From: Gemmatimonadaceae bacterium
GTDB taxonomy: Bacteria > Gemmatimonadota > Gemmatimonadetes > Gemmatimonadales > Gemmatimonadaceae
Direction: 5' to 3'
Assembly (NCBI GenBank): GCA_020846935.1
Contig: JADLCY010000006.1
Location: forward strand, 124,001 to 188,000
DNA: 64,000 nucleotides
In this document: positions 14,466-49,688 of the stretch, one piece after another
Numbering within the stretch: the first letter of the stretch is position 1
Layout of the letters: every line of letters begins with the position of its first letter
Notes under the pieces: model-generated
The model's database searches: none
Seen by the model: the letters and a program-made list of their open reading frames with translations, nothing else
What the model was told of the DNA's origin: nothing
Translations under genes and position numbers: made by a program

Positions 14466-14471
14466 CCGCAG

Positions 14472-31070: not shown

Positions 31071-33773
31071 ATGAGCCGGAACCTCGCCGCGCGCGATCGC
31101 GTCATCAGCTATACCGAGGGCACTCGGCTGCACGTGGTGAGCCATACGCACTGGGATCGCGAGTGGTATCGCACCGCGGAGTCCTTTCGCATCGGGCTCA
31201 TCGAACTCATCGATGACGTGCTGGCCCGCGATCGCCCGTTCCTGCTGGACGGCCAGGCCATCCTCGTCGACGACTATCTGTCCTGGAAGCCCGAGGCGAC
31301 CGACCCGTTGCACCGCCGGCTGGCGCGCGGGTCGCTCGAGGCCGGACCGTGGTATGTCCTGGCCGACAATCTGATTCCGTCGGGCGAGGCGCTGGTCCGC
31401 AACCTCCTTGCCGGCCGCCGCACGTTAGGCGCGGCGGGGGCAAAAGCACCACCGGTGCTCTACTGCCCGGATTCGTTCGGTCACCCCGCCGCCGGACCCA
31501 CGCTCGCGGCGGGCTTTGCTCTGCCGCTGGCCATCGTGTGGCGTGGCTACGGTGGGAGAGGCTGGCCCGCCGGTGACTCGGCTCGCTGGCGTTCGATGGC
31601 GGGCGAAGAGGTGCAGCTCTTTCACCTGTCGCCGTCGGGCTACGAGGAAGGATCGAACCTGCCCGTGGATCCGGGGGAGGCGGCACTCCGATGGCCGGCA
31701 CTCTGGCGCACCCTGCATGCGCGCGCCACGCTGCCGGCTTCGCTCCTGCTCAATGGGGCGGACCACCACGCCATGCAAAGGGACCTGTCCGCCGCCCTCG
31801 ATGCCGGCCGCGCGGAGATCGGGGATCTCATCGACGAATCCACCTTGTGGGGATTTGCCGAGGTGCGGCAGTTGCTCGGCGCGCGTGTGGCACTGCCGGT
31901 GGTGACCGGCGAGCTGCGTGGATCGCCGTCGTTCGCGTGGTCCCTGCAAGGAACCTTTGGTTCGCGCGCCCACCAGAAGCGGGCCAACGCCGGTCTCGAG
32001 CGCCTGCTGGTCCGCGAGGTGGAGCCGTGGACCGCGCTGGCCTGGTGGCGTACGGGCCTCGATCTGCAATGCGCCGAGCACGCGCTGTGGCGCCTGACGC
32101 TCACCTCCCACCCGCACGACACGCTTTGCGGGAGCGCGATCGACGAGGTGGCGCACGCCATGGACGATCGCATCGCCCGCGCGGCCGCGGGCGCCGTCAC
32201 CCTTCGCGACCGTGCGGTGGCTGCCTGCGCCGGTCGCGACGGAGACCGGGATCGCGCGGCGTTCAGCGGCAATGCACGCGCGGTGCTGATCACGAATCCC
32301 GTCCCGTGGTCTCGCTGTGGCGTGGTCGAGGTCGAAGTCGACATTCCCCTCGCCATCGTCGCCGTGGGGCCCGGGTCGGCCGACCAGACGCCGGAGCCGC
32401 GCGCGGTTCCGCCGTGGTCGATCGGGGCGCCGTCGCTCCCCATGCAGCGCCTTGGCGGCGTCCGTGGATTTGCGCGCCACGACGCACCGCACCACTACCC
32501 GCGCACCGCGATCGTGCAACGCGAGCGCGCCCTGGTGTGGGTCGATGACCTGCCGCCACTCGGCACGCGCGTCATCCCGATCGTCGATCGGCGCGGCCGC
32601 GCCCGTCCCCCGAGACCAGTGCGCGTCGAGGGGACCGCGCTGGACAACGGTCGGGTCCGCGTGTGGTGGGACACCCATCGCGGACTCTGTTGTGCGCGGG
32701 GCGACGAAACCTGGGAAGATCTTCTGGCCTTTGAGACCGTTGGCGATCGCGGCGATCTGTACACACACTCGGCGATTCCCAGCACGCTCCGCCGCGCCGT
32801 CCCCCGGTCCGGGAAGGTCACCCTGCGAGGTCCGTTGCGCGGCGAGCTCCGGCTGAACGTCGTCGTGCCGGTGGCCGCCAGGCAGCTCGACGATGCGACC
32901 GGCGTGGGCCGCTCGCGACCCGAGGGGAGCCATCGTGTGGTGGTGCGTGTTCAGCTGGATGCCGGCGCGCCGTGGTTCCGGATCCTCGTGAGTGGCGCCA
33001 ACGCGCACGAGGATCAGCGTCTGCGGGCCGTGGTCCGGACGGGCGCACGCTCCGCCGTACATCGTGCGGACGCCGCCTTCGGCGCGGTCGAGCGCTCGTC
33101 GTTGCGCACCATGTCGCTGGCGGGAGACGTCGAGCTGCTGCCGGGTACGTCGCCGCTGCAGCGCGCGGTGTCGGTCTTTGACGTATCACGAGGATTCACC
33201 GTGATCTCGGACGGACTCGCGGAATACGAAGCGTCCGGCGACGGCGAGATCGCGATCACCCTCGTCCGGGCGGTCGGTGAGCTGAGTCGGAACGACCTGC
33301 CCGAGCGCCCGGGTCATGCGGGCTGGCCCTCGCCGACGCCGCTCGGTCAGTGTGTGCGTGACTGGGAGGCGCAGCTGGCGATCCTGCCGCATGGCCTGGC
33401 CACGCCCGCCACGTTGGGCGCCATCGAACGGGCGTGCGACGACGTGCTCGTGCCCGCGCGTGGTCGCACGACCGTGCCCGGAGCGTCGGGTGACGCGGTC
33501 GGGCTGACGCTCCTCGGTGACGATCTGGCATTCGGGGCGTGCAAGCGGTCCGAAGACGGCGCCGATCTCGTCGTGCGCTGCACGAACGTTGGCGGCGGGT
33601 GGGCCGCGGGATCCTGGCGGCTCGCAGGTCTCGAATGCGCGTGGGTCGCGCGGCTCGACGAGACGCCGCTTGGCGCGTTGGAAGTCCGCGACGGCATTGT
33701 CGCGTTCCTGGTCGCGCCACACGCCACGTCGACGATCCGCCTGCGCGCCGGGCGCTCGGCACGCGACGCCTAG
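31071..33773 (+). CDS. GH38 alpha-mannosidase-like glycoside hydrolase
   Basis: The protein has 900 residues from ATG 31071, without a signal peptide, so probably cytoplasmic. The GH38 N-terminal catalytic domain shows HVVSHTHWDREW (zinc ligands including His25 and Asp29), LYCPDSFGHPA with the nucleophile Asp134, and SHPHDTLCGSAIDEV (His347/His349/Asp350). The all-beta C-terminal region follows. Relatives remove alpha-linked mannose or hydrolyse mannosylglycerate. It faces an oligopeptide-type ABC importer encoded on the other strand and lies near a heparinase-like lyase, pointing to intracellular breakdown of an imported glycan. Its stop codon overlaps that of the convergent permease gene. 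Confidence 0.93.
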   Translation: MSRNLAARDRVISYTEGTRLHVVSHTHWDREWYRTAESFRIGLIELIDDVLARDRPFLLDGQAILVDDYLSWKPEATDPLHRRLARGSLEAGPWYVLADNLIPSGEALVRNLLAGRRTLGAAGAKAPPVLYCPDSFGHPAAGPTLAAGFALPLAIVWRGYGGRGWPAGDSARWRSMAGEEVQLFHLSPSGYEEGSNLPVDPGEAALRWPALWRTLHARATLPASLLLNGADHHAMQRDLSAALDAGRAEIGDLIDESTLWGFAEVRQLLGARVALPVVTGELRGSPSFAWSLQGTFGSRAHQKRANAGLERLLVREVEPWTALAWWRTGLDLQCAEHALWRLTLTSHPHDTLCGSAIDEVAHAMDDRIARAAAGAVTLRDRAVAACAGRDGDRDRAAFSGNARAVLITNPVPWSRCGVVEVEVDIPLAIVAVGPGSADQTPEPRAVPPWSIGAPSLPMQRLGGVRGFARHDAPHHYPRTAIVQRERALVWVDDLPPLGTRVIPIVDRRGRARPPRPVRVEGTALDNGRVRVWWDTHRGLCCARGDETWEDLLAFETVGDRGDLYTHSAIPSTLRRAVPRSGKVTLRGPLRGELRLNVVVPVAARQLDDATGVGRSRPEGSHRVVVRVQLDAGAPWFRILVSGANAHEDQRLRAVVRTGARSAVHRADAAFGAVERSSLRTMSLAGDVELLPGTSPLQRAVSVFDVSRGFTVISDGLAEYEASGDGEIAITLVRAVGELSRNDLPERPGHAGWPSPTPLGQCVRDWEAQLAILPHGLATPATLGAIERACDDVLVPARGRTTVPGASGDAVGLTLLGDDLAFGACKRSEDGADLVVRCTNVGGGWAAGSWRLAGLECAWVARLDETPLGALEVRDGIVAFLVAPHATSTIRLRAGRSARDA

Positions 33774-34609
33774 GTACGATCGCCGAGTGAGCGAGGGACG
33801 CCGGCGCGGCTGCGCAGGCCGTCGCCGATCACGGTGCAGAGCAACACGGTCACGATGAGGGCGAGACCCGGTGCGAGGGCGACCCAGGGCGCCGTGACGA
33901 TGAGGTCGCGCCCGCCCGCGATCATGTTGCCCCAACTGGGGGTCGGCGGCTGCACGCCGAGCCCCAGGAAAGCGAGCCCGCTCTCCAGCAGGATCGCGTT
34001 CCCCACGCCAAGCGTCGCGGCGACCATCGCACCACTGGTCGCGTTGGGCACCACGTGCCGGAGCAGCGTGCGAAGGCCCGGCGCGCCGAGCGTGCGCGAC
34101 GCGTCGACGAAGCCCGCCGAGCAGAGCCCCTGGACGTCGGCGCGGACGAGTCGCGCGACCGACATCCAGCCGGTGACCGACAGCACGACGATCACGGTGC
34201 CAAGGCCCGGCGCCCACAGGGCGACGCACAACAACAGCAGCACCAGGCGCGGGATCGCGAGCAGCGCGTCCGCGAGACTCATGAGCAGTCGGTCGACGAC
34301 ACCGCCCAGCCAGCCGCTCACCGCGCCGATGGCCACGCCGAGCCCCGTGGCGATCAACGACCCCGCCACACCGACGACCAGCGAGATGCGCGCGGCGAGC
34401 AGCGTGCGCACGAACAGGTCGCGGCCAAACCGGTCGGTGCCGAGCACGTGAAAGATGCCGTCGCCGTCCCGGGAGAAGGGCGCCGCGAGTCGCGTGGCGA
34501 GCACATCTTCGATGGCGAGCGGATCCTTCACGGCCAGCAGCGGCACGAAGACCGCGGCGAGTGCCACCGCGCCTATCGCGAGCACCGCGTGGCGGCCGCC
34601 GCGCGTCAT
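33770..34609 (-). CDS. OppC/DppC-type ABC transporter permease
   Basis: The protein has 279 residues from ATG 34609, which overlaps the stop of the upstream permease by 4 bases. Hydrophobic segments in the usual pattern are present, plus HVLGTDRFGRDLFVRTLLAAR, typical of the start of DppC/OppC permeases. The ATPase-contact EAA-like loop is VDASRTLGAPGLRTLLRHVVPNA, and LAFLGLGVQPPTPSWGNMI is the family's C-terminal signature. It forms the membrane channel with the OppB-type partner. Despite the family name, members in glycan clusters can carry sugars. Confidence 0.93.
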   Translation of the reverse strand: MTRGGRHAVLAIGAVALAAVFVPLLAVKDPLAIEDVLATRLAAPFSRDGDGIFHVLGTDRFGRDLFVRTLLAARISLVVGVAGSLIATGLGVAIGAVSGWLGGVVDRLLMSLADALLAIPRLVLLLLCVALWAPGLGTVIVVLSVTGWMSVARLVRADVQGLCSAGFVDASRTLGAPGLRTLLRHVVPNATSGAMVAATLGVGNAILLESGLAFLGLGVQPPTPSWGNMIAGGRDLIVTAPWVALAPGLALIVTVLLCTVIGDGLRSRAGVPRSLGDRT

Positions 34610-35589
34610 GCGTCGCGCCGGCGCGGGTCGGCCCACGCCACGGCCACGTCGGCCAGCCAGTTGGACGCAATTACCAGCGCGGCATACACGAGGGCCGCCC
34701 CCATGACCACCGGGTAGTCCCGGGCCGCGATGGATGCGAGCATCGTACGCCCCATGCCGGGCCACGCGAAGACGCTCTCCACGAACACCGAACCGGCCAC
34801 CGTGCCAGGGAGCGACAGGGCCAGCAGCGTGATGAGCGGCGGTCGTGCATTCGCGAGCACGTGTCGTCGCATGACCGCGCTCGCCCCGAGTCCCTTGGCG
34901 CGCGCCGTGCGCACCCAGTCGCTGGCCAGGAGGTCCAGCGCGGCCGCGCGTGCATAACGCGCAAGTCCCGCGGCGCCGATCGCGGTGAGCACGGTCACCG
35001 GCAACACGGCGTGCCGCGCGATGTCGCTCGCCCGCGCCCATCCGCGCCATTCGCTCCCCGGCGTCTCCAGGCCCATGGCCGGCAGTCGCAGCCAGGCCGG
35101 CCACCCGAAGTGCGTCGCGCCGGACGTGAAGAGGGCAACCAGCGCCAGCGCCATCCAGAAGCTGGGCGCCGCAAAGATCGCGATGCTGATCGTCGTCGCG
35201 ATACGGTCCGCGGTGGTGTCGGCGCGTCGCGCCTGCCACAGGCCGACGCTCACGCCGAGAAGGAACGTCAACGCAAGGGACGTGACACCCAGCGCGAGGG
35301 TGATCGGCAGTGCGCGCCGGATGACATCGCGCACCGGCTCCTGCGTCGCGAACGAGAGGCCCAGGTCGCCAGAGAGCACCTGCGTCGTCCATCGTGCATA
35401 TTGGCCGGCGAGGCCGGCGTCGAGCCCGTAGGCCGCGCGCAGTCGCGCGATGTCCTCGGCGCGCGCGGTCGGTGGGACGAGCAGGTCCGTGGGATCACCA
35501 GGGGCCAGTCGCGTGAGGAGAAACGTGAGCGAAACGACGAGCCAGAAGAGCACGAGCGACTCGGCGCCGCGGCGCAGGATGCGTTGCAC
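34606..35589 (-). CDS. OppB/DppB-type ABC transporter permease
   Basis: The protein has 327 residues, with the first membrane helix at the N-terminus (LVLFWLVVSLTFLLTRLAPGDP, a DppB hallmark). The EAA-like loop is SDWVRTARAKGLGASAVMRRHVLANA, followed by VFAWPGMGRTMLASIAARDYPVVMG. It pairs with the DppC-type gene downstream (ATGA overlap). The divergent binding-protein gene starts only 9 bp away, so the two sides share a control region that must lie within coding sequence or further off. No OppD/OppF ATPase genes are nearby. Confidence 0.94.
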   Translation of the reverse strand: MQRILRRGAESLVLFWLVVSLTFLLTRLAPGDPTDLLVPPTARAEDIARLRAAYGLDAGLAGQYARWTTQVLSGDLGLSFATQEPVRDVIRRALPITLALGVTSLALTFLLGVSVGLWQARRADTTADRIATTISIAIFAAPSFWMALALVALFTSGATHFGWPAWLRLPAMGLETPGSEWRGWARASDIARHAVLPVTVLTAIGAAGLARYARAAALDLLASDWVRTARAKGLGASAVMRRHVLANARPPLITLLALSLPGTVAGSVFVESVFAWPGMGRTMLASIAARDYPVVMGAALVYAALVIASNWLADVAVAWADPRRRDA

Positions 35590-35598
35590 GCGCGCATA

Positions 35599-37188
35599 AT
35601 GGGGGGCGGAGGCGCTACGTCAACCGAGCGGCGGAGGGTCGCTCGATGCTGGGGCGTCGTCGTCGCCGGTGCGCTCGCCGCGAGTGCGTGCTCGGGCGGC
35701 GGTCGCTCGCCCTCGACCGTGGTGGTCGCATCGGGTGCGGACCTCGAGTCGGCAAACCCGCTCACCACCATCCATCCGCTGGCGCGGCAGGTGCAGCGCT
35801 ACGCGCTGTTCGTGACCCTGGCCCGGTACGACTCCACGCTGGCGCCGTCGCCCTACTTCGCGCGGTCGTGGTCATGGAGCGCCGACCGTCGGCTCCTCAC
35901 GCTGGCGCTCACGCGCGGCCTGCGCTGGCACGACGGCACGCCCACCACGGCCGCCGATGTCGCGTTCACCGTCGATGCGGCACGTGATCCGGCGACGGGC
36001 TTCTTTCGTCGCGGCGACCTGGGCGAGGTGACGGGGACGGTGGTGCATAACGATACCTCGGTCTCGATCACCTTCGCGCGTCCTCAGGCGCGCTTTCCGC
36101 TCGTGCTGTGTGAATTGCCGATTGCGCCCGCCAGCCGCCTCGCCGAGGTGCCGCGTGCACGGCTCCGTGCCGACGAGTTTGCGCGCGCTCCGATGGGCAA
36201 CGGCCCGTACCGTTTTGTGGAACGTCGCGCCAGACAATTCTGGACCTTTGTGGCCGACAGCGCGTTTCCACCAGCCATGGGCGGTCCGCCACATGTCCAT
36301 CGGCTCGTGGTCGCCGTGGTCGATGAACCGACGACGAAGTTCGCCGGGCTGGTGAGTGGTGACCTCGACCTCGCCGGGATCGCGCCGACCATGGCCGGCC
36401 TCGTGGCCGAGGATCCGCGACTGGAGGTGGTGTCGTACCCGGTCGCCTTCACGACGGCGCTGGTGTTCAATGCCGCGCGCGCGCCGTTCGATGATGCGCG
36501 CGTCCGACGTGCGATCGGAGCGGCGATCGACCGGCGTCGCCTGGTCGACGTGGCGCTCAACGGGTTTGGCGTCGTCGCGGACGGCGCCATTCCACCGGAC
36601 CATCCGTTTCACGGGCTGAAGCCCGCCGCGGTCGACCCCGGCGCCCTGCTCGATTCGGTGGGCTGGGTCAGACAGGGCGCCTGGCGGTCGCGCCGCGGGA
36701 CGCGCCTCGCGTTCACGCTGCGCACCGTCGGCAACGGCGACAACGCGCTCGAGCAACTGGTGCAGGCCGACCTGCGAGCGTTGGGCGTCGACGTCCGGAT
36801 CGCGCAAATGGAGCTCGGGGCCTTTTTGGCCATGGCGCGCGCGACGGAGAAATCGTTCGACGCGCTCGTCACCGGGATTCCCGGTGATGTGTCACTGTCT
36901 CACCTCGCGGCAATGTTCGAGGGCGACCAGGCCGGTGGGGCCCTGGACTACGCCGGCTTTCATCGCGCGGCGCTGGATAGTTTGTTCGACGGCACGCGTG
37001 AGGCGCCGACGGAGGCCGGGCTCGCGGCCGCCTGGCAGGCGGTGGACGGCTGGCTCGCGCGAGAGGCACCTGTTGCGTGGCTCTATCACGCGCGTGGGGT
37101 GCAGGGCATGTCGCGCCGACTCGGGGGCGTCCGGATGGACCTGCGTGGAGAGCTGGTCACCCTCTCGCAGTGGACACTCTCCCGGTGA
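35599..37188 (+). CDS. Family 5 extracellular solute-binding lipoprotein (Opp/Dpp type)
   Basis: The protein has 529 residues from ATG 35599, with a lipoprotein signal ending in the lipobox AASAC. The SBP_bac_5 pattern is present: ANPLTTIHPLARQVQRYALFVTLARYD, then SWSADRRLLTLALTRGLRWHDGTPTTAADVAFT, then APMGNGPYRF, and VRRAIGAAIDRRRLVDVAL. It would capture the ligand for the divergent OppBC permeases. Its stop overlaps the heparinase-like gene by GTGA, so lyase and binding protein are made together, which suggests that the transported ligand is an oligosaccharide rather than a peptide. Confidence 0.93.
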   Translation: MGGGGATSTERRRVARCWGVVVAGALAASACSGGGRSPSTVVVASGADLESANPLTTIHPLARQVQRYALFVTLARYDSTLAPSPYFARSWSWSADRRLLTLALTRGLRWHDGTPTTAADVAFTVDAARDPATGFFRRGDLGEVTGTVVHNDTSVSITFARPQARFPLVLCELPIAPASRLAEVPRARLRADEFARAPMGNGPYRFVERRARQFWTFVADSAFPPAMGGPPHVHRLVVAVVDEPTTKFAGLVSGDLDLAGIAPTMAGLVAEDPRLEVVSYPVAFTTALVFNAARAPFDDARVRRAIGAAIDRRRLVDVALNGFGVVADGAIPPDHPFHGLKPAAVDPGALLDSVGWVRQGAWRSRRGTRLAFTLRTVGNGDNALEQLVQADLRALGVDVRIAQMELGAFLAMARATEKSFDALVTGIPGDVSLSHLAAMFEGDQAGGALDYAGFHRAALDSLFDGTREAPTEAGLAAAWQAVDGWLAREAPVAWLYHARGVQGMSRRLGGVRMDLRGELVTLSQWTLSR

Positions 37189-39914
37189 CCGGCACCTTCC
37201 TGCTCGCTTCTCCCGCCGACCTCGCGGCGCGACGTGAGGTGGTCGCCGGTCCGCTGGCGGGTCTCGCGCGCTCCCTCGAGGAGGACCTCTCTCCGCTGCT
37301 CGCGGCGGACCGCATCGTGTTGCCACCGGAGAAGGCCCGCCTGACGAGAACGGGCGGACGTTGCCCGGTTCACGGCGTCCTGCTCGCCTTCGATCCCCTG
37401 TCGCCGCGGGCGCACACGTGCCCGGTGTGTGGCGACGTGTTCACCAGCGATGACCATTACCGCTGGTGGATAATGAACTACCAGCTCTGGCTCGCCGAGC
37501 GGTGCGTGCATGCGGCGGCCCTCGCCGCGACGCGCGAGAGTGCCCCGTGCCGCGACCTCGCCGAACGCATCCTCTCGGCGTGCGTGTCGGCGTACCTGCA
37601 CTACCCAAACAAGGACAACGTGCTTGGCCCCACGCGGCCGTTCTTCAGCACGTACCTCGAGAGCATCTGGGCCCTGCAGCTGGCGGTCGCGCTCGACCTG
37701 CTCGAACAATCGGGCGCGACCGGCGCCCTCGGCGCCGCCGTGCGCAGTGAACTGCTCGAACCGTCGCTCGCGCTCATCTGCGAATACGATGAGGGCGCCT
37801 CGAATCGTCAGGTCTGGAACAATGCCGCCATGCTCGCCATCGCGACGCTTCTCGCCAATGACGCCGTCGCCGAGCGCGCCATCCACGGCAAGGCCGGTCT
37901 GCTGGCGCACCTGCGTGACGGCCTGCTCGCCGACGGCGCCTGGTACGAAGGAGAGAACTATCATCAATTCGCGCATCGCGGCCTGTGGTACGGTGTCACC
38001 ATGGCCGAGCGACGAGGCGAGCCGTTGCCTGAGGCGTTGGCCGAGCGCTTTGCAGAGGCGTTCGCCATCCCTTTTGCCACCGCGCTGCCGGACTTCACGT
38101 CCCCGGCGCGGCGCGACTCGCAATACGGCGTCTCACTGCGCCAGTGGCGCTACGCCGAGTCGTGTGAACTCGGCCTCGCGCGACGGGACGACCCGCGACT
38201 CTCCGCTGCGCTCCTGGAGTTGTACCGCGACGACGTTGCCCCGGGCGATACCGAGCGCGCCCGCTCGACCGCCGAGGCGGAGCGCAACGCACCCGCGGCG
38301 CGCCTGACGAGAGCGTCGCTGGGCTGGAAGTCGCTCCTGCACGCGCAGCCAACGCTGCCGGACGCCCCGCGCGCGCGACCGACGCCTGCTTCCGTGCACC
38401 TGGCGCACCAGGGGTTTGCGGTTTTTCGGCGGCGCGGTGGGCAGGTGTACGCGGGCCTCGATTATGGAGTCCCTGGCGGCGGTCATGGTCATCCGGATCG
38501 GCTCAACCTGTGGCTCGTGACGGGTGCCGATCGCTGGCTCGAGGACGTGGGCACCGGTTCGTACGTGGATCGCTCGCTCTTCTGGTACCGCTCGACCCTC
38601 GCGCACAACGCGCCGCTCATGAACGGCACGTCGCAGCCGTACGGCGCCGGCGTCCTGCGCGCCTGGGACGAACAGGGAGATGCCGGATGGGTGGAGGCTG
38701 AGTTCGAGATCGTGCCCGGACGGGCACGCGTGACACGACGGCTCATCGTGATGCCCGGCTACCTGATCGATGAGGTGCGCTGGGCGAGTGCCGACGACAC
38801 GACGTTCGACCTGCCGATGCACGTCGACCCGGACGAGGGGCCGGGTACCGGATGGGAGCCGTCGACGATCGCCGTCACGCCGGGCAGCGGCTTCGAGTTT
38901 CTGCGCGGCGTCGAACGCGCATCAGGCACGTCGTTCGACGCATTCGCGGCCACGCGCGCAGCCTCGTCGATTCGCGGATGGATCCAGAGCGACGCGGCCT
39001 GCGAGTGGTATCGCGCGACTGCCCCCGGGCCGCCGGGCGAACCGCCGCGACGATTCATCTTTTCGCGCTGGCGAGGACACGAAGGGCGCATGCGCATGGT
39101 GTGCGCCTGGGACGCCAGCGTGAGCGCCGTGCGCTTCACGCCCGAGACGATTTCGCTCCTCGCCGGTGGCGAGCGACACGCACACCGCGCGATCGGCCCC
39201 GCGTGGCACGTCCGCACGCAGGGCGTGGGGGCGCCCGTCGAGATCGTGCTGCGCGGTCGCGCGTCGGCGCCGCGTCCGGTCTCACCCGCGGCGCTCGAGG
39301 CCGTAGGCACGTTGCCGCGCCACATGCTGGCCGCAGGCCGTCCGTTCGTGATGGAACTCGCCGAGCGCCACTATCGGCGATCCGAACTGCCGTGGGCGGC
39401 CGCCGGAGCGCCGGAGGCGTCGCTGCGCGTGGCGGCCGGTCGTGAGGCGGTGGACATCGACGTGCAGGTGCGCAAGCGCGATCCCGTGTTTGCCCCTCCG
39501 CGCCGAGAGAACCTGCTCGACAACGAGGATCCCGATATCAACTCCGACGGCCTCCAGCTCTATCTCACGCTGCCCGACTCGCAGGCGCAGGCGAGCTGGC
39601 TGCTCGTCCCGGAGGAGGGCGGTGGTGTCCGCATCGCGGCACGACAGGTGAGTGGCAGCGTGCCGGCCATCGGCGCCGAGTGGCGCCTAACGACCGATGG
39701 ATACCGGGTGCGCATCCACCTGCCGCGTGGTTCGCAGGGCCTGGGCATCGACCGGCACTTCATGTTGAACGTCGTGATCAACGAGATTTCCCGTGATCGC
39801 GAGCGCCGTCGTGGTCAGCTCGTGGCCACCGGGGCCACGGGGGAGTGGGTGTACCTGCGCGGCGACCGCGAAGACCCCCTCCGGATGCTCGCCTTCGAGA
39901 TCGTCGATGCCTGA
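37185..39914 (+). CDS. Heparinase II/III-like polysaccharide lyase with C-terminal carbohydrate-binding-like domain
   Basis: The protein has 909 residues from the GTG at 37185 that overlaps the upstream stop; a GTG at 37170 is the alternative. A CxxH...CPVC cluster (about residues 60-85) looks like a small metal-binding knuckle. The (alpha/alpha) toroid contains YEGENYHQFAHRGLWYGV (about 250-270). The heparinase II/III beta-sandwich domain has GGGHGHPDRLNLWL (about 430), with the His residues typical of the family's active site and zinc site. The last 150 residues (VDIDVQVRKRDPVFAP, NSDGLQLYLTL) resemble a CBM9/DOMON module. There is no signal peptide, so it may work in the cytoplasm on imported uronate-containing oligosaccharides. 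Confidence 0.87.
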   Translation: MTGTFLLASPADLAARREVVAGPLAGLARSLEEDLSPLLAADRIVLPPEKARLTRTGGRCPVHGVLLAFDPLSPRAHTCPVCGDVFTSDDHYRWWIMNYQLWLAERCVHAAALAATRESAPCRDLAERILSACVSAYLHYPNKDNVLGPTRPFFSTYLESIWALQLAVALDLLEQSGATGALGAAVRSELLEPSLALICEYDEGASNRQVWNNAAMLAIATLLANDAVAERAIHGKAGLLAHLRDGLLADGAWYEGENYHQFAHRGLWYGVTMAERRGEPLPEALAERFAEAFAIPFATALPDFTSPARRDSQYGVSLRQWRYAESCELGLARRDDPRLSAALLELYRDDVAPGDTERARSTAEAERNAPAARLTRASLGWKSLLHAQPTLPDAPRARPTPASVHLAHQGFAVFRRRGGQVYAGLDYGVPGGGHGHPDRLNLWLVTGADRWLEDVGTGSYVDRSLFWYRSTLAHNAPLMNGTSQPYGAGVLRAWDEQGDAGWVEAEFEIVPGRARVTRRLIVMPGYLIDEVRWASADDTTFDLPMHVDPDEGPGTGWEPSTIAVTPGSGFEFLRGVERASGTSFDAFAATRAASSIRGWIQSDAACEWYRATAPGPPGEPPRRFIFSRWRGHEGRMRMVCAWDASVSAVRFTPETISLLAGGERHAHRAIGPAWHVRTQGVGAPVEIVLRGRASAPRPVSPAALEAVGTLPRHMLAAGRPFVMELAERHYRRSELPWAAAGAPEASLRVAAGREAVDIDVQVRKRDPVFAPPRRENLLDNEDPDINSDGLQLYLTLPDSQAQASWLLVPEEGGGVRIAARQVSGSVPAIGAEWRLTTDGYRVRIHLPRGSQGLGIDRHFMLNVVINEISRDRERRRGQLVATGATGEWVYLRGDREDPLRMLAFEIVDA

Positions 39915-40761
39915 GTCGCTGCTCCATCGCGTGCGCGTGGTCCTCTACGAGCCGCAGAACCCGATCAACATCGCGGCGACGGTTCGGGCGATGAAGAACT
40001 TCGGCGTGCGCGACCTGACACTCGTGCGGCCGGTGCCCTACACGCCGTATCGACTGGAAGGCATCGCCCACGACACGCTCGACGTGATCGAACGGATCCG
40101 CGACGTCGACTCGCTGGATGAGGCGCTGTCCGACGCGGTCCTGGTGGCCGCGTTCTCCGCGCGGCGGCGCCGCGTGAAATGGGAACTCGCGACGCCGCGG
40201 TCGCTCGCGCCGATGGTGCTCTCGCAGGCGGTGCAGGGCACCGTCGTGCTCATGTTCGGTCGGGAGGACGACGGGCTGCCCAATGAGGCGCTCGACCGCG
40301 CGCACGTGGCCATCACGATCCCGACGAGCGAACACGCCTCGCTCAACCTGGCGCAGGCCGTCGTCATCGCCCTCTATGAACTGCACGTCGCCGCCGGCGA
40401 CGCCACGCGGATCGTCGAGCCGCATCGGCACCTCGTGCCCCCGGCCACCAGCGCCGACCTCGAACGGCTGTATCGAGACCAGGAGCGCGCGCTCGAAGCG
40501 GTCGAGTTCTTCAAGACCCGCTTTCGCACCCACATCATGAGGAGCGCGCGGTCCATGACCTCACGCACCCGGCTCGACGCGCGCGAGGTCATGCTCGCCC
40601 GCGCGATGTGGATCGAGGTCGTGCGCGCAATGAATCGCTATCGCGGCATTGCGGGGCTCCCGCCGATCGATCCGGGTGAGCCCGTCGCATTCGACGCAGG
40701 TGACGACTTCGTGAGCACGGACGACCCATCGCCAACCTCCACACCGCACGGCAACTTGTAG
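39907..40761 (+). CDS. SpoU/TrmH-superfamily RNA methyltransferase, TrmJ-like
   Basis: The protein has 284 residues from ATG 39907, overlapping the upstream stop by 8 bases. The SPOUT knot motifs are clear: NPINIAATVRAMKNFG (motif 1), VLMFGREDDGLPNEAL (motif 2) and IPTSEHASLNLAQAVVIALYEL (motif 3). The order and the N-terminal placement fit the TrmJ/LasT group, which 2'-O-methylates tRNA position 32. The C-terminal helical part (HIMRSARSMTSRTRLDAREVMLARAMWIEVVR) is also found in TrmJ-like proteins. It is not functionally related to the glycan genes and is probably there by chance of operon structure. Confidence 0.92.
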   Translation: MPESLLHRVRVVLYEPQNPINIAATVRAMKNFGVRDLTLVRPVPYTPYRLEGIAHDTLDVIERIRDVDSLDEALSDAVLVAAFSARRRRVKWELATPRSLAPMVLSQAVQGTVVLMFGREDDGLPNEALDRAHVAITIPTSEHASLNLAQAVVIALYELHVAAGDATRIVEPHRHLVPPATSADLERLYRDQERALEAVEFFKTRFRTHIMRSARSMTSRTRLDAREVMLARAMWIEVVRAMNRYRGIAGLPPIDPGEPVAFDAGDDFVSTDDPSPTSTPHGNL

Positions 40762-40799
40762 GCGACTCCACGGTCTCTCTCCAACGCACCCACACGGAC

Positions 40800-42140
40800 A
40801 TGGCCTTCAATTTCTTCCGCCGCAAAGAGGGCGCGCCCCCGCCTGACGAGACGGCCGTCGAGGAGACCGACACGTCCGAAGAGGAGCGTGCGAGCGAGGA
40901 GTACGACGAAGGGGCTCCCGAGTCCGTTGCTGACGACGATGCGCTCGACCTCGAGTGGCGCTCGCGTGCGGCGGATTGGATTCCGGGTGGCGCGTCCACC
41001 GGCAGTCGCCGGCCGGCGGCCCTGTACGGCGATGCGTCGACCGAGGGGCCGGCGCATTATCTCCGCGCCTCCGGCTGCCACGTCACCACCGCCTCCGAAC
41101 GCACGCTCATCGATTGCACCATGGCGCTCGGCGCCGTGAGCCTGGGCTATGCCGACGACGGCGTGGTGCGTGCGGTGATCAGCGCCGTGGCAAGCGGGCA
41201 CGTGGCCGCGTTCGCGCACGTCAGCGAGGTCGACATCGCCGAGCGGCTCTGCGAGGTCATTCCGTGTGCGGAGCAGGTGCGCTTTCTCAAGAGCGGGGCC
41301 GAGGGCGTGAGCGCGGCGGTGCGCATCGCGCGCACCGTGACGTCGAGGTCGCACGTGGTGGCGTCGGGCTACTTCGGTTGGCACGACTGGTCCAATGCAG
41401 GGCAGGGGATTCCCGCGGAGGTCGCGCGAACGGTGACGCGTGTGCCCTTCAACGACCTCGCGTCGCTCGATGCCGCGGTCGATGCCGCGGGAGCGGATCT
41501 CGCCGCCATCGTCATCGAGCCGGTGGTCGAAGGCCTGCCTGACGACGCCTGGCTGGCACGCGCGCGCCAACGGTGCGACGAGGCGGGTGCCGTGCTCGTG
41601 TACGACGAAATGAAGACCGGATTCCGACTGGCGACCGGCGGTTTTCACCAGGGCCATGCGATCCAGCCTGACCTGGCGGTGTTCGGCAAGGCGATGGCGT
41701 GTGGGATGCCCGTGTCCGCCGTGGTCGGTCGGCGCGACGTCATGGCGGCCGCGACGCAGACGTGGATCTCGTCCACGGCCGCCGGTGAGTCCGCCTCGCT
41801 CGCGGCGATCGGCGCCGTGCTTGATCGCTACGGTGAGGAGGACGTCTGTGGGACGCTCGCCAGGGTGGGCAGACAGATCCGGCTGGGTGTCGAGCGCGCC
41901 GTGGTGGCGAGCGGCATCGCCGGGGTCAGCGTCCACGGGCTCGACCCCATGTGGTTCCTGCGATTCGACGAGCCGGCCCTGGAGACACGCTTTCTCGAGC
42001 GCGCGGCTGCCCTGGGTGTCATGTTCAAACGCGGCGCCTACAACTACGCGGCGCTCGCGCACGACACCGATGAGGTGCTGCTCGAGATCGAGCGTGTGGC
42101 GTCCACCGCGATGGTGGAGGTGCTGGAGGACGTCGCGTGA
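40800..42140 (+). CDS. Class III PLP aminotransferase with acidic N-terminal extension
   Basis: The protein has 446 residues. The first 50 are acidic and low-complexity (EETDTSEEERASEEYDEG) and unusual for the family. The core has KSGAEGVSAAVRIAR (phosphate-binding region, about 164-178), YDE (268-270) and the PLP lysine Lys297 in VFGKAMACGMPVSAVVG. It resembles glutamate-1-semialdehyde aminomutase-like aminotransferases used in sugar or amino-acid metabolism rather than HemL itself. Its stop overlaps the amidohydrolase start (GTGA), so it acts with the two following genes, probably removing or adding an amino group to a small acid or sugar derivative. Confidence 0.88.
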   Translation: MAFNFFRRKEGAPPPDETAVEETDTSEEERASEEYDEGAPESVADDDALDLEWRSRAADWIPGGASTGSRRPAALYGDASTEGPAHYLRASGCHVTTASERTLIDCTMALGAVSLGYADDGVVRAVISAVASGHVAAFAHVSEVDIAERLCEVIPCAEQVRFLKSGAEGVSAAVRIARTVTSRSHVVASGYFGWHDWSNAGQGIPAEVARTVTRVPFNDLASLDAAVDAAGADLAAIVIEPVVEGLPDDAWLARARQRCDEAGAVLVYDEMKTGFRLATGGFHQGHAIQPDLAVFGKAMACGMPVSAVVGRRDVMAAATQTWISSTAAGESASLAAIGAVLDRYGEEDVCGTLARVGRQIRLGVERAVVASGIAGVSVHGLDPMWFLRFDEPALETRFLERAAALGVMFKRGAYNYAALAHDTDEVLLEIERVASTAMVEVLEDVA

Positions 42141-42952
42141 ACGCCCTCGCGGGCGAGGGGCCGCTGATCGACGTGCACGCGCACTTCTATCAGGAGGGCG
42201 CGGGGCGAAGCGATTGGCGCCACCTCAACGCGCGTCGGCTGGAGGCCGGTGACCGGCTCGGCATCACGGTGCACGTGGCGTCGATGCTCGGCACGTGGGG
42301 AGCGACCTCGCCGACCTATTTCCAGTCCCGCGACGACACCCGCAGCGCCAACGATGCCATGCTGGGGTTGCAGCGCGGCGATCGGCGCATCCGATCGTAC
42401 GTCGCCGTCAATCCGAACGACACCGACTTCGCCGTCGCGGAGATCGACCGCTGCGCCGGGGCCGGTGCCATCGGTCTCAAGCTGGCCGCCGCCCGACGGT
42501 GTGATGATCCCGTCGTCGAGCCGATCATCGAGCGCGCCGCCGCGCACGGCTTTCCGGTGCTGCACCACATCTGGCAACATCGTCGCCGGCACTGGCCCGG
42601 CCAGGACATCTCTGACGGCGCAGATCTCGCGGGGCTCGCGACCCGGTTCCCGCACGTGGTGTTCATCCTCGCGCATATCGGCGGCGGCGGGGACTACGCC
42701 CACACCTTCGCGGCAGCCGCCGACGTGCCTAACGTCTTCCTCGATCTCTCCGGCAGCGGGATCGATCGCGGCATGCTCGATGACGCGCTCGAGGCGGTCG
42801 GGCCACAACGCCTGCTGTGGGGCGCCGACCTCACGCTGTGCACGGGCCTCGCCAAGCTTCGCGCGCTCGAGGTCATCGGGCTCGACGGCGCCGCCATGGC
42901 CGACATCCGCTGGCGCAACGCCGCCCGCATTTTTCCTTCGCTGCGGTTCTGA
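42137..42952 (+). CDS. Amidohydrolase-2 family metal-dependent hydrolase
   Basis: The protein has 271 residues from a GTG overlapping the aminotransferase stop. The amidohydrolase-2 TIM barrel is recognisable: IDVHAHF with the HxH metal motif, VAVNPND, GLKL, VLHHIW with a metal-site His, FILAHIGGGG and LLWGADLTLC with the final Asp. Such enzymes hydrolyse or decarboxylate small carboxylates, including uronate derivatives and aromatic acids. No specific substrate can be read. A second member of the family follows after 46 bp. Confidence 0.9.
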   Translation: MNALAGEGPLIDVHAHFYQEGAGRSDWRHLNARRLEAGDRLGITVHVASMLGTWGATSPTYFQSRDDTRSANDAMLGLQRGDRRIRSYVAVNPNDTDFAVAEIDRCAGAGAIGLKLAAARRCDDPVVEPIIERAAAHGFPVLHHIWQHRRRHWPGQDISDGADLAGLATRFPHVVFILAHIGGGGDYAHTFAAAADVPNVFLDLSGSGIDRGMLDDALEAVGPQRLLWGADLTLCTGLAKLRALEVIGLDGAAMADIRWRNAARIFPSLRF

Positions 42953-42998
42953 TCGACCACCACTCGCTCGTTCCCAGATCCCCGCGCCTCTCCCTGCG

Positions 42999-43766
42999 TT
43001 GTCACGCGTCACCGTAGACGTCAACACCTTCATCGGCGGCCATCCATTCCGCCATGTGCCACACCCGGAACCCGCGGTGCTGGCGCGCGTGCTCGAGCGC
43101 GAGGGCGTCCAGACCGCATGGGTGGGCCACCTGCCGGGCGCGTTTCATCGCGATCCGGCGCACGCCAACCGGGAATTGCTGCAGGCCATGGATGCGGGGC
43201 GGGGGCGCCTGCGAGCGGCGCCGATCGTGCGTCCCGACTGGCCGCGCTGGATGACCAGGGTGCGTGAACTGCGCGCGGCCGGTGCGGTGGCCATTCGCGC
43301 CTGGCCGCAGCTGTGGAGCTTTGGACCCGGCGATCCACGGTTGCGGGAGCTGGCCAGCGCCTGTGCCGCGGAGGACCTGCCGCTCGTGCTGACGGTGCGC
43401 TTCGAAGATCAGCGGCAACGACACCCGTTGGACGTCGCGCCGGACCTGTCGGCGGCCCATGTGCGCGAACTGGCGCGCGCGCGTACCGGTGCGCGTGTCG
43501 TCCTCACGGCCGCGGGCCGCGAGATGATCGAGGAGATTCACTGGGGGCTGACGCCGGAAGAGCGCGACCGCGTGTTCTACGACATCTCCTGGATCTGGGG
43601 ACCGCCCGTCGACGAGTTGTCGCACCTGTTTCGGACAATTGGTGCGGGGCGATTCCTGTTCGGTACCATGTGGCCCCTGCGACTGGTGCAGGGACCATCG
43701 GCAAACCTCGACCTGCTGGAATCGGACGTGGCCGATGCGCGCCTGGCGGACCCCTCGACGTGGTAG
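42999..43766 (+). CDS. Second amidohydrolase-2-like protein, lacking the HxH motif
   Basis: The protein has about 255 residues. No ATG or GTG fits; the TTG at 42999 is the best start, just before VTVDVNTFIGGHPF. The barrel pattern follows the neighbouring gene (AWVGHLPGAFHRDPAHANRELL, AAPIVRPDWPRW, GAVAIRAWPQLWSF, GRFLFGTMWPL), but the N-terminal HxH is replaced by Asn-x-Phe and the terminal Asp site by GTMWP. It may therefore be catalytically inactive or use a different metal arrangement, perhaps as a partner subunit of the upstream amidohydrolase. The start is uncertain. Confidence 0.8.
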   Translation: MSRVTVDVNTFIGGHPFRHVPHPEPAVLARVLEREGVQTAWVGHLPGAFHRDPAHANRELLQAMDAGRGRLRAAPIVRPDWPRWMTRVRELRAAGAVAIRAWPQLWSFGPGDPRLRELASACAAEDLPLVLTVRFEDQRQRHPLDVAPDLSAAHVRELARARTGARVVLTAAGREMIEEIHWGLTPEERDRVFYDISWIWGPPVDELSHLFRTIGAGRFLFGTMWPLRLVQGPSANLDLLESDVADARLADPSTW

Positions 43767-43926: not shown

Positions 43927-44568
43927 ATGACGAGCAGGAGTAAGTGGGCACTGGTTCCGGCCTTCTTTGCGATCGCAATGACGGCGACCGTGCTCTCGGC
44001 CTACAGCGGCGCGTCCTCGTCGCAAGGCGTCCAACCCGTCCAGCCCATCCCCTTTCCGCATCCCGTGCATGTGAAGACGGTCGGGATGAACTGCCTGTAC
44101 TGCCACTACAGCGCGAACAAGTCGGCGGATCCCGGGTTGCCGGCCGTCGGGACGTGCATGGGATGCCATACCCTGGTGGGACCGAACCGTCCCGCGCGCG
44201 ATGGCCAGCCCGCACGGGTGAGCGAAGGGATCAAGACGCTGCAGGAGTATGCGCCCATCGGGCAGCCGGCCAAGTGGAAGGAGATCCCCTGGGTGCGCAT
44301 CCACAAGCTCCCGGAATACGTCCGCTTCCCGCACGTTCGCCACGTGAGCGCGGGCGTTACCTGCCAGACGTGCCATGGAGCGGTGCAGGACATGGCGCAG
44401 GTCTACCAGAACGCGTCGCTCAACATGGGTTGGTGCCTCACGTGTCACGTGAACGGCTACCAGTTGAGCGAGGGACTCACGGCCGCGGGTGACACCGCCG
44501 GCGCCACGGCCGCGGCGGCCGTCGCGCCAAAGAAGGCGCGCTACGATTGCGCGGTCTGCCACTACTAG
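43927..44568 (+). CDS. actA: Alternative complex III subunit A, pentaheme cytochrome c
   Basis: The protein has 213 residues with an N-terminal membrane/signal segment (WALVPAFFAIAMTATVLSAY). It has exactly five CxxCH heme sites at 56-60, 77-81, 146-150, 170-174 and 208-212, as known for ActA. ActA sits on the periplasmic side of alternative complex III and passes electrons from the iron-sulfur subunit to cytochrome c or directly to an oxidase. It starts the actABCDEF operon, 39 bp downstream of the CRP-type palindrome. Confidence 0.96.
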   Translation: MTSRSKWALVPAFFAIAMTATVLSAYSGASSSQGVQPVQPIPFPHPVHVKTVGMNCLYCHYSANKSADPGLPAVGTCMGCHTLVGPNRPARDGQPARVSEGIKTLQEYAPIGQPAKWKEIPWVRIHKLPEYVRFPHVRHVSAGVTCQTCHGAVQDMAQVYQNASLNMGWCLTCHVNGYQLSEGLTAAGDTAGATAAAAVAPKKARYDCAVCHY

Positions 44569-44583
44569 TTCATCCCACCTCGT

Positions 44584-44612
44584 GCGCGGCGTCGGATCAT
44601 CCATCGCCGCGC
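44584..44612 (+). other. Intercistronic hairpin between actA and actB
   Basis: GCGCGGCG and CGCCGCGC (8 bp) flank a 13-base loop in the 75-bp gap after actA. There is no T-run, so it is more likely an mRNA-stability or processing element than a terminator; it could set a different level for actA than for the rest. Confidence 0.5.
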
Positions 44613-44643
44613 GCGGGTTCCCTGCGCACCGAGGATCTACTGC

Positions 44644-47600
44644 ATGAGCCAACCCATGGGACCTGACGGAACGACCGGCGGCGTGAAGCGCCGCACGTTC
44701 CTCAAGGTGCTCGGGGCCGCTGGCGCGGCAACGACCGCTGTTGGATGCACCAACGAGCAGGTCGAGAAGCTGATTCCCTACCTCGAGTCGCCGGACCAGA
44801 CGGTGCCCGGCGTGTCCACGTACTACAGCACGACCTGCCGCGAGTGCGCCACGTCCTGCGGCGTGATCGCCGAGGTGCGCGACGGGCGCGCGATCAAGCT
44901 GGAGGGCAATCCCGATCACCCGGTGAACCAGGGTGCGCTGTGTGCCAGGGGGCAGGCATCGCTCCAGGGACTCTACAATCCGGATCGCTATCGCACGCCG
45001 ATGGTGCGCGAGGGCAACCGGCTCGTGCCCACGACGTGGGATACGGCGATCACCACGCTGCGTCAGAAGCTCGGTGAGGCCCGAGGGGGAGCGGGGAACG
45101 CGGTCTTCATCAATCGCCCGGACAGCGGCTCGTTCGCCGGGTTCCTGGATGGCTGGCTCGCGGCGTATGGCTTTCAGTCTCACATCCAGTACGATCCCAC
45201 CGCGGATCTGGCGTACGAGTCGGCGAACCAGGCGGCGTACGGTGTGGCCATGCCCAGGCTCGACTTCGCCGCCGCCAGGCTGGTGATCTCGATCGGCGCC
45301 GACTTCCTCGACGGGTGGGGCGCGAGCGTCCCGCAGCAGCTGTCATTCGGCGAAGCACGAGGCAAGCTGCAGGATGGGCCGCGCGTGGTGTACATCGGGG
45401 CGCGTCGCTCGCTGACCGGTCTGAACGCCGACACGTGGATCTCGTGCGCACCGGGTTCCGAGGGCGCCATCGCCAGCGCGCTGCTTTCCGCGGTTGGGGG
45501 ATCCGGCGGCACCGTCGCCGCGGCCGCGCAGGCGAGCGGCGTGAGCGAGGCGACGCTGCAGGCGCTGGCCGACGAGCTTCGGGCCGCGCGCCCGAGCCTT
45601 GTGGTTTCCGGCGTCAGCACGCCCGACGCGGCGGCGGTCGCCACGACGGTGGCGGCGATCAACAAGGCGACTGGCGCCGTCGGGGTGACCATCAAGCCGG
45701 CCGACGCCCACAGCGGGTTCGGCGGTGCGGTGGGACTGGCGGCCATGCAGACCGTCGCCAACAACGCCAATGCCGGCACGGTGCGGTTGCTGTTCGTGCG
45801 AGGGGCGAACCCGGCGTACGACACGCCAAAGGCGATGCAGTTTGCCGCGGCGATGGCGAAGGTGCCGTACAAGGTCTCCTTCTCGAGCTACCCGGACGAG
45901 ACCAGCGAACTCTGCGACCTCGTGCTCCCGGACGATCACTTCCTGGAGTCGTGGGGTGACGCGCAGGCTGCGCCCGGTGTCATCGGTCTGCAGCAGCCGG
46001 TGATGGATCGCATCTTCACGACGCGGGCCACCGCTGACGTGCTGCTCGATGTTGCGCGCGGCGACGCGGCGATCGCGGGGCGGTACACGCAGCGCAACTA
46101 CCGCGAGGTGATCCTCGCCCGCTATGGCGCCGCCAACGTGACCTCGGCGCTGCCGAAAGCGCTCACGACCGGCACCATTGGCGCGCGATCAGTGGCCGCG
46201 AGCCCGTCAAGCGCGGGCACACTCGCGGGCGACGGGGAGTTCTTCCTCGTCACCTATCCGCACAGCGTGCTTGGGGCGGGCGAGGGCGCCAACAAGCCCT
46301 GGCTGCAGGAGCTGCCCGACCCGGTGGCCAAGATCGTCTGGCAGTCGTGGGTCGAAATCCACCCCTCCACGGCGCAGCGACTCGGCATCGCCGCCGGCGA
46401 CCACGTCACCGTGACGACGGCCGCGGGCACCATCACCGCGCCCGCCTGGCCGTACCTGGGCATTCGCACGGACACGGTGGCGATCGCGCTGGGGCAGGGC
46501 CACACGAAGTACGGTCGTTACGCCGAAGGCATCGGCGTGAACGCGCTCGATGCACTCGGGGCGACGCTGAACGCTGGCGGCGGTCTCGCGCTCACGCAGG
46601 CCAAGGCGCGCGTGGCGAAAGCCGCCGATCATTCGCCGCTCGTGACGTTGGAGGGATCCGCGCGACAACACGGCCGAGGCATCGCGCAGGCGATCACGGT
46701 CGCCGACTTCGTTGCTGGTGTCGAAGCCGAGCATCACGCGCTGCCGGGCGACGCGAGTCACGAGTTCCTGCCGGGTCTGCGTTCGCCGGTGGCGAACGAT
46801 GCCCAGGGCGACCTCGGTGACCCGACGTCGAAGGACAAGGGGATGTACGACCCCGAGCACTGGAGCGGGATGGCCAAACGGCGCTGGGCGATGACCATCG
46901 ACCTTGCCAAGTGCACCGGATGCTCGGCGTGTGTGACGGCGTGCTACGCGGAGAACAACATTCCGACGGTCGGCGCGCGATGGCAGGGTCGTTCGCTGCG
47001 CCCGTTCCACACGGCAGACGGTGCCGGGTGGGACACGCGACCCGGCGCGAACATCCTCAAGGGTCGCGAGATGGCGTGGATTCGCATCGAGCGGTACTTC
47101 GAGGGCGGTGAGGACGGGACCGGCGAGTTCGAGGCGCGGTTCGTCCCGATGATGTGCCAGCACTGCGGCAACGCGCCTTGCGAGCCGGTGTGTCCGGTGT
47201 ATGCGACGTACCACGCGCCGGACGGCCTGAACGTCCAGGTGTACAACCGCTGCGTGGGCACGCGCTACTGCTCGAACGGCTGCCCGTACAAGGTGCGCTA
47301 CTACAACTGGCACGGATACGGCGAGAAGGAGCGGCGCCAGTACGCATTCCCCGAGCCGCTGCACCTGCAGCTCAATCCGGATGTCACGGTGCGGGGCAAG
47401 GGCGTGATGGAGAAGTGCTCGTTCTGCGTGCAGCGCATCCGCGAGGCCGAGACGCGCGCCAAGGTCGAGAACCGGGAGCTGGTGCCTGACGAGTTCACGA
47501 CGGCGTGCGCGCAGGCGTGTCCATCGCGCGCGATCGTTTTTGGTGATGCGGCCGACGACCGATGGTCGGTGGCCCGTCCGGCGGCGAGCGACGCGCGCCG

Positions 47601-47730
47601 ATACCACGTGTTCGAGGAGCTCAACACCTACACGGCGGTGGTCTACTTGAAGAAGGTCAACCATACGGGGGCAGCCGGCGCGACCGCGGCGCCCGCAGCC
47701 GCCGCGGTGCAGCCGCAGGAGGCCCGCTGA
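44644..47730 (+). CDS. actB: Alternative complex III subunit B, molybdopterin-oxidoreductase-like iron-sulfur protein
   Basis: The protein has 1028 residues. It begins with a Tat signal (KRRTFLKVLGAAGAA). The first 700 residues have the fold of molybdopterin oxidoreductases (TTCRECATSCGVIAEVRDGRAIKLEGNPDHP, GALCARGQASLQGLYNPDRY, LPDDHFLESWGD). In known complexes this part lacks the molybdenum cofactor. The C-terminal 270 residues are a four-cluster ferredoxin domain: CTGCSACVTACYAE (about 757), MMCQHCGNAPCEPVCP (about 838), CVGTRYCSNGCPY (about 870), KCSFCVQRI and CAQACPSRA (about 925-955). It relays electrons from quinol-oxidising subunits to ActA. Confidence 0.97.
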   Translation: MSQPMGPDGTTGGVKRRTFLKVLGAAGAATTAVGCTNEQVEKLIPYLESPDQTVPGVSTYYSTTCRECATSCGVIAEVRDGRAIKLEGNPDHPVNQGALCARGQASLQGLYNPDRYRTPMVREGNRLVPTTWDTAITTLRQKLGEARGGAGNAVFINRPDSGSFAGFLDGWLAAYGFQSHIQYDPTADLAYESANQAAYGVAMPRLDFAAARLVISIGADFLDGWGASVPQQLSFGEARGKLQDGPRVVYIGARRSLTGLNADTWISCAPGSEGAIASALLSAVGGSGGTVAAAAQASGVSEATLQALADELRAARPSLVVSGVSTPDAAAVATTVAAINKATGAVGVTIKPADAHSGFGGAVGLAAMQTVANNANAGTVRLLFVRGANPAYDTPKAMQFAAAMAKVPYKVSFSSYPDETSELCDLVLPDDHFLESWGDAQAAPGVIGLQQPVMDRIFTTRATADVLLDVARGDAAIAGRYTQRNYREVILARYGAANVTSALPKALTTGTIGARSVAASPSSAGTLAGDGEFFLVTYPHSVLGAGEGANKPWLQELPDPVAKIVWQSWVEIHPSTAQRLGIAAGDHVTVTTAAGTITAPAWPYLGIRTDTVAIALGQGHTKYGRYAEGIGVNALDALGATLNAGGGLALTQAKARVAKAADHSPLVTLEGSARQHGRGIAQAITVADFVAGVEAEHHALPGDASHEFLPGLRSPVANDAQGDLGDPTSKDKGMYDPEHWSGMAKRRWAMTIDLAKCTGCSACVTACYAENNIPTVGARWQGRSLRPFHTADGAGWDTRPGANILKGREMAWIRIERYFEGGEDGTGEFEARFVPMMCQHCGNAPCEPVCPVYATYHAPDGLNVQVYNRCVGTRYCSNGCPYKVRYYNWHGYGEKERRQYAFPEPLHLQLNPDVTVRGKGVMEKCSFCVQRIREAETRAKVENRELVPDEFTTACAQACPSRAIVFGDAADDRWSVARPAASDARRYHVFEELNTYTAVVYLKKVNHTGAAGATAAPAAAAVQPQEAR

Positions 47731-49675: not shown

Positions 49676-49688
49676 CACGAGAGGACAC

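Follow-up and report, generated by a model that had tools for sequence, protein, structure and literature searches.

Importer-coupled catabolism of glycans, lyases of the heparinase fold and ATP-binding cassette (ABC) ATPases shared between importers are each already known. The oligopeptide permease (Opp) system of Borrelia burgdorferi is described as combining a single OppDF with five binding proteins and, in addition, an orphan OppBC (PMC7822543), and the single streptococcal ATPase MsmK is reported to energise several sugar importers (PMC4519317). Among the lyases, Smlt2602 of polysaccharide lyase family 17 (PL17) is reported to act with an Asn and a His as neutralisers, a His as base and a Tyr as acid (PMC4765187), other PL17 enzymes are described as having a Tyr in both the base and the acid role (PMC12336832), and for PL40 the catalytic residues are given as Asn/Trp, His and Tyr, with His485 as the base, plus His487 (PMC12915356). 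Here we describe a locus of a Gemmatimonadaceae bacterium in which genes for a heparinase II/III-type lyase and a glycoside hydrolase of family 38 (GH38) lie beside those of an Opp/Dpp-type importer. The window, that is the whole stretch analysed, comprises 64,000 nucleotides (G000:C6:124001-188000, contig C6 being JADLCY010000006.1) of a 4.52-Mb genome, and was studied by gene calling and by Pfam and NCBIfam searches.

On balance, we think that the locus probably serves to take up a small oligosaccharide that contains uronate and is perhaps mannosylated or amino-bearing, and to break it down in the cytoplasm, by means of an importer with a shared OppDF, the lyase and the GH38 enzyme. In this scheme, the binding lipoprotein would capture the oligosaccharide, the DppBC permeases would carry it over the inner membrane, and the ATPase would be supplied by the only OppDF pair found in the genome, located at a distance and next to an OppBC of its own. 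In the cytoplasm, the lyase would cut the chain at the uronate by beta-elimination, with Asn207 and Arg208 holding the carboxylate, His434 or Tyr460 taking the C5 proton and Tyr259 donating a proton. The GH38 enzyme would strip alpha-mannose-like residues, and the aminotransferase, a metal-bearing amidohydrolase (AH1) and a GHMP sugar kinase would process the products.

More tentatively, we put forward as a possibility that two things hold together: that the order has a new polysaccharide lyase family of Arg type, with this lyase as its founding member, and that the unit represents a novel catabolic route for an oligosaccharide of alpha-mannose and uronate or amino-uronate, with Opp-type import on a communal OppDF and wholly cytoplasmic degradation by lyase, GH38 enzyme, sugar kinase, aminotransferase and an amidohydrolase that has a homologue free of metal as its partner. 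Neither the locus itself nor this combination, its breadth or an Arg-type lyase was found in print in a literature search limited to titles and the openings of abstracts. To our knowledge, little is known about the carbon sources of the order, and a unit conserved over it likely marks a main food of the group. The enzymes of the unit look active and can be assayed, and the locus offers a direct test of the idea that, across the order, a single OppDF pair drives more than one Opp importer, a sugar importer among them.

Conservation of the unit across genomes

We compared 57 loci, 36 from the family of the window (f1, which we take to be the Gemmatimonadaceae) and 21 from families f2 and f3 of the same order (taken as the Gemmatimonadales), the latter from 20 genomes of a phylum sample plus the locus L098. 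A lyase match was obtained in 102 of the 179 genomes of f1, in which the gene is mostly single-copy; the 36 loci were picked among these 102 genomes, and those of f2/f3 likewise, for contig extent and spread, with L070 (3.9 kb) excluded. Per-gene counts were taken over the loci with enough flank, hence their differing denominators.

A unit of eight genes was found to be kept together across this order of soil and freshwater bacteria. The order and orientation DppC-DppB-SBP-lyase-aminotransferase-AH1, SBP being the substrate-binding lipoprotein, were kept in 41 of the 48 testable loci of other genomes, or in 42 of the 48 if L193, which fails solely through a second, distant aminotransferase upstream, is counted as a pass. 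The clustering seen in an initial annotation of this DNA, and the coupling of importer to lyase that it proposed, are borne out by this joint conservation. In f1, GH38, DppC, DppB and SBP were each present in 32 of 32 loci, the aminotransferase and AH1 in 34 of 34 and a second amidohydrolase-type protein (AH2) in 33 of 34, which supports the aminotransferase and the amidohydrolases as members of the unit, as had been supposed. In f2/f3, DppB and DppC were each found in 16 of 18 loci, SBP in 17 of 18 and the aminotransferase in 19 of 20. Identity to the window protein was 40-73% in f1 and 34-44% in f2/f3 for the lyase, and 57-80% and 53-62%, respectively, for AH1.

Across the phylum sample, 168 of the 395 genomes gave a lyase match at E <= 0.001, and strong matches were confined to f1, f2 and f3. 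Some matches within the order were weak (G174, G175, G176 and G395), as were those in ten genomes outside it (E 2.3e-5 to 3.8e-12). A scan of genome contigs yielded 150 relatives, of which 80 were inspected; all but two of these bore the name of a member of Gemmatimonadota, among which we count Roseisolibacter on the assumption that it is a member, and the others were a 'bacterium' and a Kuenenia bin. The remaining 70 may include relatives from outside the phylum.

The gene for a TrmJ-type RNA methyltransferase was kept in 30 of 34 f1 loci, and downstream of the unit the genes for cytochrome and molybdopterin proteins were kept in 29 of 34. TrmJ was absent from 15 loci that retain the aminotransferase, and was therefore rejected as a unit member. 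No such cytochrome and molybdopterin genes were seen at 5 of 34 f1 and 14 of 20 f2/f3 loci, where the unit was mostly intact, and in the loci of genus g7 the TrmJ and cytochrome neighbours were missing and the unit was together. Since the unit persists where TrmJ and the outer neighbours differ, its conservation speaks for a common function, beyond synteny.

Predicted active-site residues of the lyase and the accompanying enzymes

The protein first described as heparinase-like does carry a Hepar_II_III_C domain; its nearest solved relatives, in turn, appear to be the alginate lyases of PL17 and the ulvan lyases of PL40 more than the heparinases. It consists of a toroid and a beta sandwich (residues 1-680) followed by a C-terminal domain, which may be CBM9-like: CBM9_1 was seen just in the orthologue of L148, slightly under its cut-off (22.7 versus 23.4 bits), and structure matches barely cover residues past about 690. 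With the predicted model (pLDDT 90.2, pTM 0.92), the top ten Foldseek matches were all PL17. VIA-align gave Z 30.7-33.3 against PL17 (root-mean-square deviation 2.7-3.2, 590-597 residues, 14-16% identity) and, level with this, Z 32.3 over 629 residues at 16% identity against the PL40 enzyme Uly1040. These were followed by HepIII, Dp0100, dermatan sulfate epimerase and Atu3025. Heparinase III entries scored Z 24.8-28.2 and heparinase II entries 20.8-23.5, both under PL17 and PL40, and a heparinase grouping was set aside as less likely on this structural comparison. The grouping with PL17 and PL40 was made by fold and profile comparison; by sequence, the lyase profile reached PL17 Alg17c at E 3e-21.

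The alignment with Alg17c pairs N207 of the lyase with N201, R208 with H202, Y259 with Y258, H434 with H413, H436 with H415, D454 with D433, Y460 with Y450 and H474 with H464. All eight lyase residues, R208 included, were invariant in 42 sequences. The lyase thus has in common with PL17 (Alg17c, Smlt2602) the fold over residues 1-680 and the Asn, the two Tyr, the HxH and the Asp/His equivalents, and keeps both the His and the Tyr that are candidate bases in PL17 enzymes; it differs from them in the Arg (42 of 42) in place of His202, in its low identity, in the extra C-terminal domain and in a CPxHG/CPxCG segment, seen by eye close to the N terminus. As to PL40, the HGH of the window lyase aligns with His485/His487 of the Uly1040 motif (PMC12915356), and the differences are the low identity, an Arg at the position of Trp246, which like those of the Asn and Tyr was placed only through the PL17 alignment, the coupling to an importer and the lack of a signal peptide visible by eye. 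Replacement by Phe of the neutraliser His of Smlt2602, the equivalent of which is Arg in the window lyase, is reported to have given activity on polyglucuronate (PMC4765187), and for this reason alginate is not implied as the substrate. Sequence and predicted structure together suggest that the lyase is an active beta-eliminase acting on a uronate, not necessarily that of alginate.

Like 3lvt, with which it aligned over most of its length, and 2wyh, the GH38 enzyme has the motif residues conserved (H27, D29, D134, D231 and H349, at least 95% in 40 sequences); HxHWD, the PD nucleophile and HPHD, which we take to be the family motifs, are all present, and no signal peptide was seen by eye. Its identification as MngB was rejected, since it scored 231.3 bits with NF007331, far under the equivalog cut-off of 1138. 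The nearest solved relatives of the aminotransferase are C-6' aminotransferases and GSAM, and its conserved Lys 250 (in the trimmed protein) is taken as the lysine that binds pyridoxal phosphate. It is not HemL (176.7 bits with TIGR00713 versus a cut-off of 527.3); the HemL of the genome is encoded at C10:20014-21261 (531 bits, over the cut-off). A second HemL-like aminotransferase, at 347.7 bits under the same cut-off, is encoded at 1629-2867 of the window (C6:125629-126867).

AH1 has conserved H14, H16, K115, H144, H180 and D231, the full set of presumed metal ligands; even the closest of the solved structures matches it only weakly (E 6e-4). The active-site roles of the conserved residues in GH38, the aminotransferase and AH1 are those that we assume from general knowledge of these enzymes. 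AH2 of the window gave no Pfam match of its own, and its orthologue in L148 matches Amidohydro_2 (E 1.1e-8). It is without the HxH and the other metal ligands, in place of which there is a conserved ED-RQR motif, and it is kept in the order, perhaps as a structural partner.

A GHMP sugar kinase is part of the unit in 17 of 18 f2/f3 loci. In f2/f3 its gene lies between SBP and lyase, and in L098 and in four loci of f1 it adjoins GH38 or lies close to it; the genome of the window has a homologue outside the locus (C1:482286, 40% identical). The kinase of L154 scored 145.7 bits of 600 with the HddA model and 130 of 721 with the fucokinase model. An epimerase-like SDR is encoded near the unit in L098, L099, L137, L191, L194 and L200 (L099 and L137 being cut by a contig edge), and a homologue in the window genome lies at C1:804140 (50% identical). 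There (L217:9012-11173) the SDR gene is followed by a further gene, the like of which, by eye, adjoins the SDR in L191 and L098; this pair possibly is a dispersed part of the pathway.

Proposed sharing of OppDF, ligand class and alternative readings

An Opp/Dpp importer is recognised by OppB, OppC and a family 5 binding protein, and all three are encoded at the locus. No OppD/F is: the two oligo_HPY matches of the genome are both on contig C11, where the one OppD/F pair lies next to its OppBC. The genome has four OppBC pairs (on C6, C10, C11 and C15) and five family 5 binding proteins, all encoded on contigs other than C11, so that the supposition of a borrowed ATPase was supported by a genome-wide search. 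By eye, the coupling loops look canonical in all four OppB and four OppC and are similar between the pairs. Among the matches listed, the sole ABC_tran match on C6 is at 61456-61881 of the window. The genes at 61396-63734, for an ABC ATPase and a lipoprotein-like open reading frame (ORF), with permease matches just past the window (C6:188721-190146), are probably a separate importer with an ATPase of its own.

We counted OppB and OppD/F matches in 121 genomes of the order, 84 lyase-positive and 37 negative, with G175 (weak lyase match) counted as negative. Exactly two OppD/F-domain matches were found in 94 of the 121 genomes, and none in 12. At least two OppB were present in 96, and 85 of these had exactly two OppD/F matches; both features occurred together in 72 of the 84 lyase-positive genomes. 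The mean number of OppB was 2.9 in lyase-positive (n=84) versus 1.35 in negative genomes (n=37), one OppB being that of the unit by construction and kinship being ignored. Of the 54 loci whose downstream flank was long enough, only L098 has OppDF beside the unit: OppD and OppF (L098:15409-17231) directly follow the amidohydrolases, share 50 and 46% identity with their C11 counterparts and are the best OppD/F match of genome G245, to which L098 belongs by contig position. Other OppD/OppF labels in f2/f3 loci were weak, one each in L199 (31%) and L203 (35%). The counts support the view that one OppDF pair may energise this importer and several others. As in B. burgdorferi, there would be a single OppDF, with five binding proteins and additional OppBC; here, in contrast, there are several sets of BC and SBP per genome, one of them beside glycan enzymes, over most of the order. 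With MsmK, the window genome would have in common a single ATPase source for several importers, although MsmK is one gene and the window genome has a D/F pair. The MsmK importers belong to a different ABC importer family.

The SBP has a lipobox-like LAASAC, seen by eye, and its AlphaFold model has a pLDDT of 86.8. From sequence and model, its ligand may be an amine-bearing compound as well as a sugar. In L060, two family 5 binding proteins (L060:7606-9381 and 14432-16096) are encoded with no OppBC match near them in the same genome.

Several observations weigh against the breakdown of an imported uronate oligosaccharide. Each amidohydrolase was found in 15 of 20 f2/f3 loci and GH38 in 11 of 18, with no sign of them in the fetched flank of the other 5 and 7, respectively, and in L206 the lyase stands alone, without the rest of the unit. 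Among the genomes with at least two OppB, 11 of 96 deviate from exactly two OppD/F matches, and 5 of the 84 lyase-positive genomes have no OppD/F match, perhaps through assembly gaps or divergence. In Foldseek, the SBP matched family 5 binding proteins of about 16-22% identity, the ligands of which are nickel complexes, peptides (AppA), glutathione, agropinic acid or opines (AgaA) and sialic acid, and it keeps an Asp aligned with DppA D436, with a gap at R383; we take both DppA residues to bind ligand, D436 the peptide amine. Together with the aminotransferase's kinship to C-6' aminotransferases and GSAM and the lack of GH38 near some units, this speaks for an importer of an amine-bearing ligand, such as a glycopeptide, an opine-like sugar-amino acid conjugate or an amino-uronate, which lyase, aminotransferase and amidohydrolases would degrade. 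We regard this as an unlikely, if serious, alternative. The Asp is not diagnostic, because it also occurs in the genome's remaining four binding proteins of family 5, and no peptidase is named among the unit genes, several recurrent ORF clusters being without annotation.

Epimerisation is possible as well, since the fold is also that of human dermatan sulfate epimerase 1 (Z 26.6). The heparinase-like protein could then be a uronosyl C5-epimerase, or non-catalytic, in a locus that remodels a self-made glycan, and a mostly single-copy gene confined to the order would suit such a role; yet the nearest structural matches are lyases, importer and GH38 are coupled to the gene, and its patchy presence in f1 better suits catabolism, which leaves this reading improbable. 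Least credible of all, and very unlikely, is that the gene order reflects vertical descent in a compact region with no shared function. TrmJ and the cytochrome/molybdopterin genes are indeed kept in most f1 loci too, but they are missing in g7 and many f2/f3 loci where the unit holds.

Gene layout and neighbouring genes

All genes named in the initial annotation (GH38, DppB/DppC, SBP, heparinase II/III-like protein, aminotransferase and amidohydrolases) are present (Table 1), and the reported GTGA, in which the SBP stop overlaps the lyase start, was confirmed at 37185-37188. The DppC and GH38 genes converge, their tails overlapping by 4 bases, and the DppB and SBP genes are divergent. Because the strands differ (GH38 +, DppC/DppB -, SBP onward +), the locus is predicted to form at least three transcripts, not one; the cluster first described stands as a conserved unit, but one in which GH38 and the permeases would be transcribed apart from the other genes. 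The minus strand of the permeases, the TrmJ gene between lyase and aminotransferase and the GHMP kinase in the unit of other families had not been mentioned before.

Table 1. Genes and predicted lyase active-site residues of the locus, in positions of the window
Feature	Position	Strand	Remarks
GH38 alpha-mannosidase / mannosylglycerate-hydrolase-like, 900 amino acids	31071..33773	+	PF01074 E 1.7e-17, PF09261 E 1.2e-9
DppC/OppC-type permease	33770..34609	-	PF00528
DppB/OppB-type permease	34606..35589	-	PF00528 + PF19300; start uncertain, 35589 or 35553
Family 5 substrate-binding lipoprotein (SBP)	35599..37188	+	SBP_bac_5 E 8.4e-59; start uncertain
Heparinase II/III-type lyase, 909 amino acids	37185..39914	+	Hepar_II_III_C E 9.3e-14
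Lyase N207-R208	37803..37808	+	Asn invariant; Arg where Alg17c has His
Lyase Y259, predicted general acid	37959..37961	+	PL17 alignment
Lyase H434-G435-H436, predicted base and metal-site residue	38484..38492	+	PL17/PL40 alignment
TrmJ-type RNA methyltransferase, passenger	39907..40761	+	TIGR00050 163.3 bits vs cut-off 167.15
Class III aminotransferase	40800..42140	+	Pfam aminotransferase class III
First Amidohydro_2 enzyme (AH1)	42137..42952	+	Pfam Amidohydro_2
Second Amidohydro_2-type protein (AH2)	42999..43766	+	start uncertain, the closest start codon being TTG at 42999

Downstream of the unit, the window has genes for a multihaem cytochrome, a molybdopterin/Fe-S protein, NrfD and cytochrome c (43927-51739), which resemble what we take to be alternative complex III. 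In some f2 loci the unit is followed by DHDPS-like, DHO_dh-like (weak) and MenC/enolase-type genes (L155:9414-12532; also L190, L192, L193, L202, L207 and L208). This trio was not counted in the unit, as it lies downstream in just 6 of 20 f2/f3 loci, and its MenC, at 200.3 bits versus the cut-off of 200.65 of the o-succinylbenzoate synthase model, may serve menaquinone synthesis.

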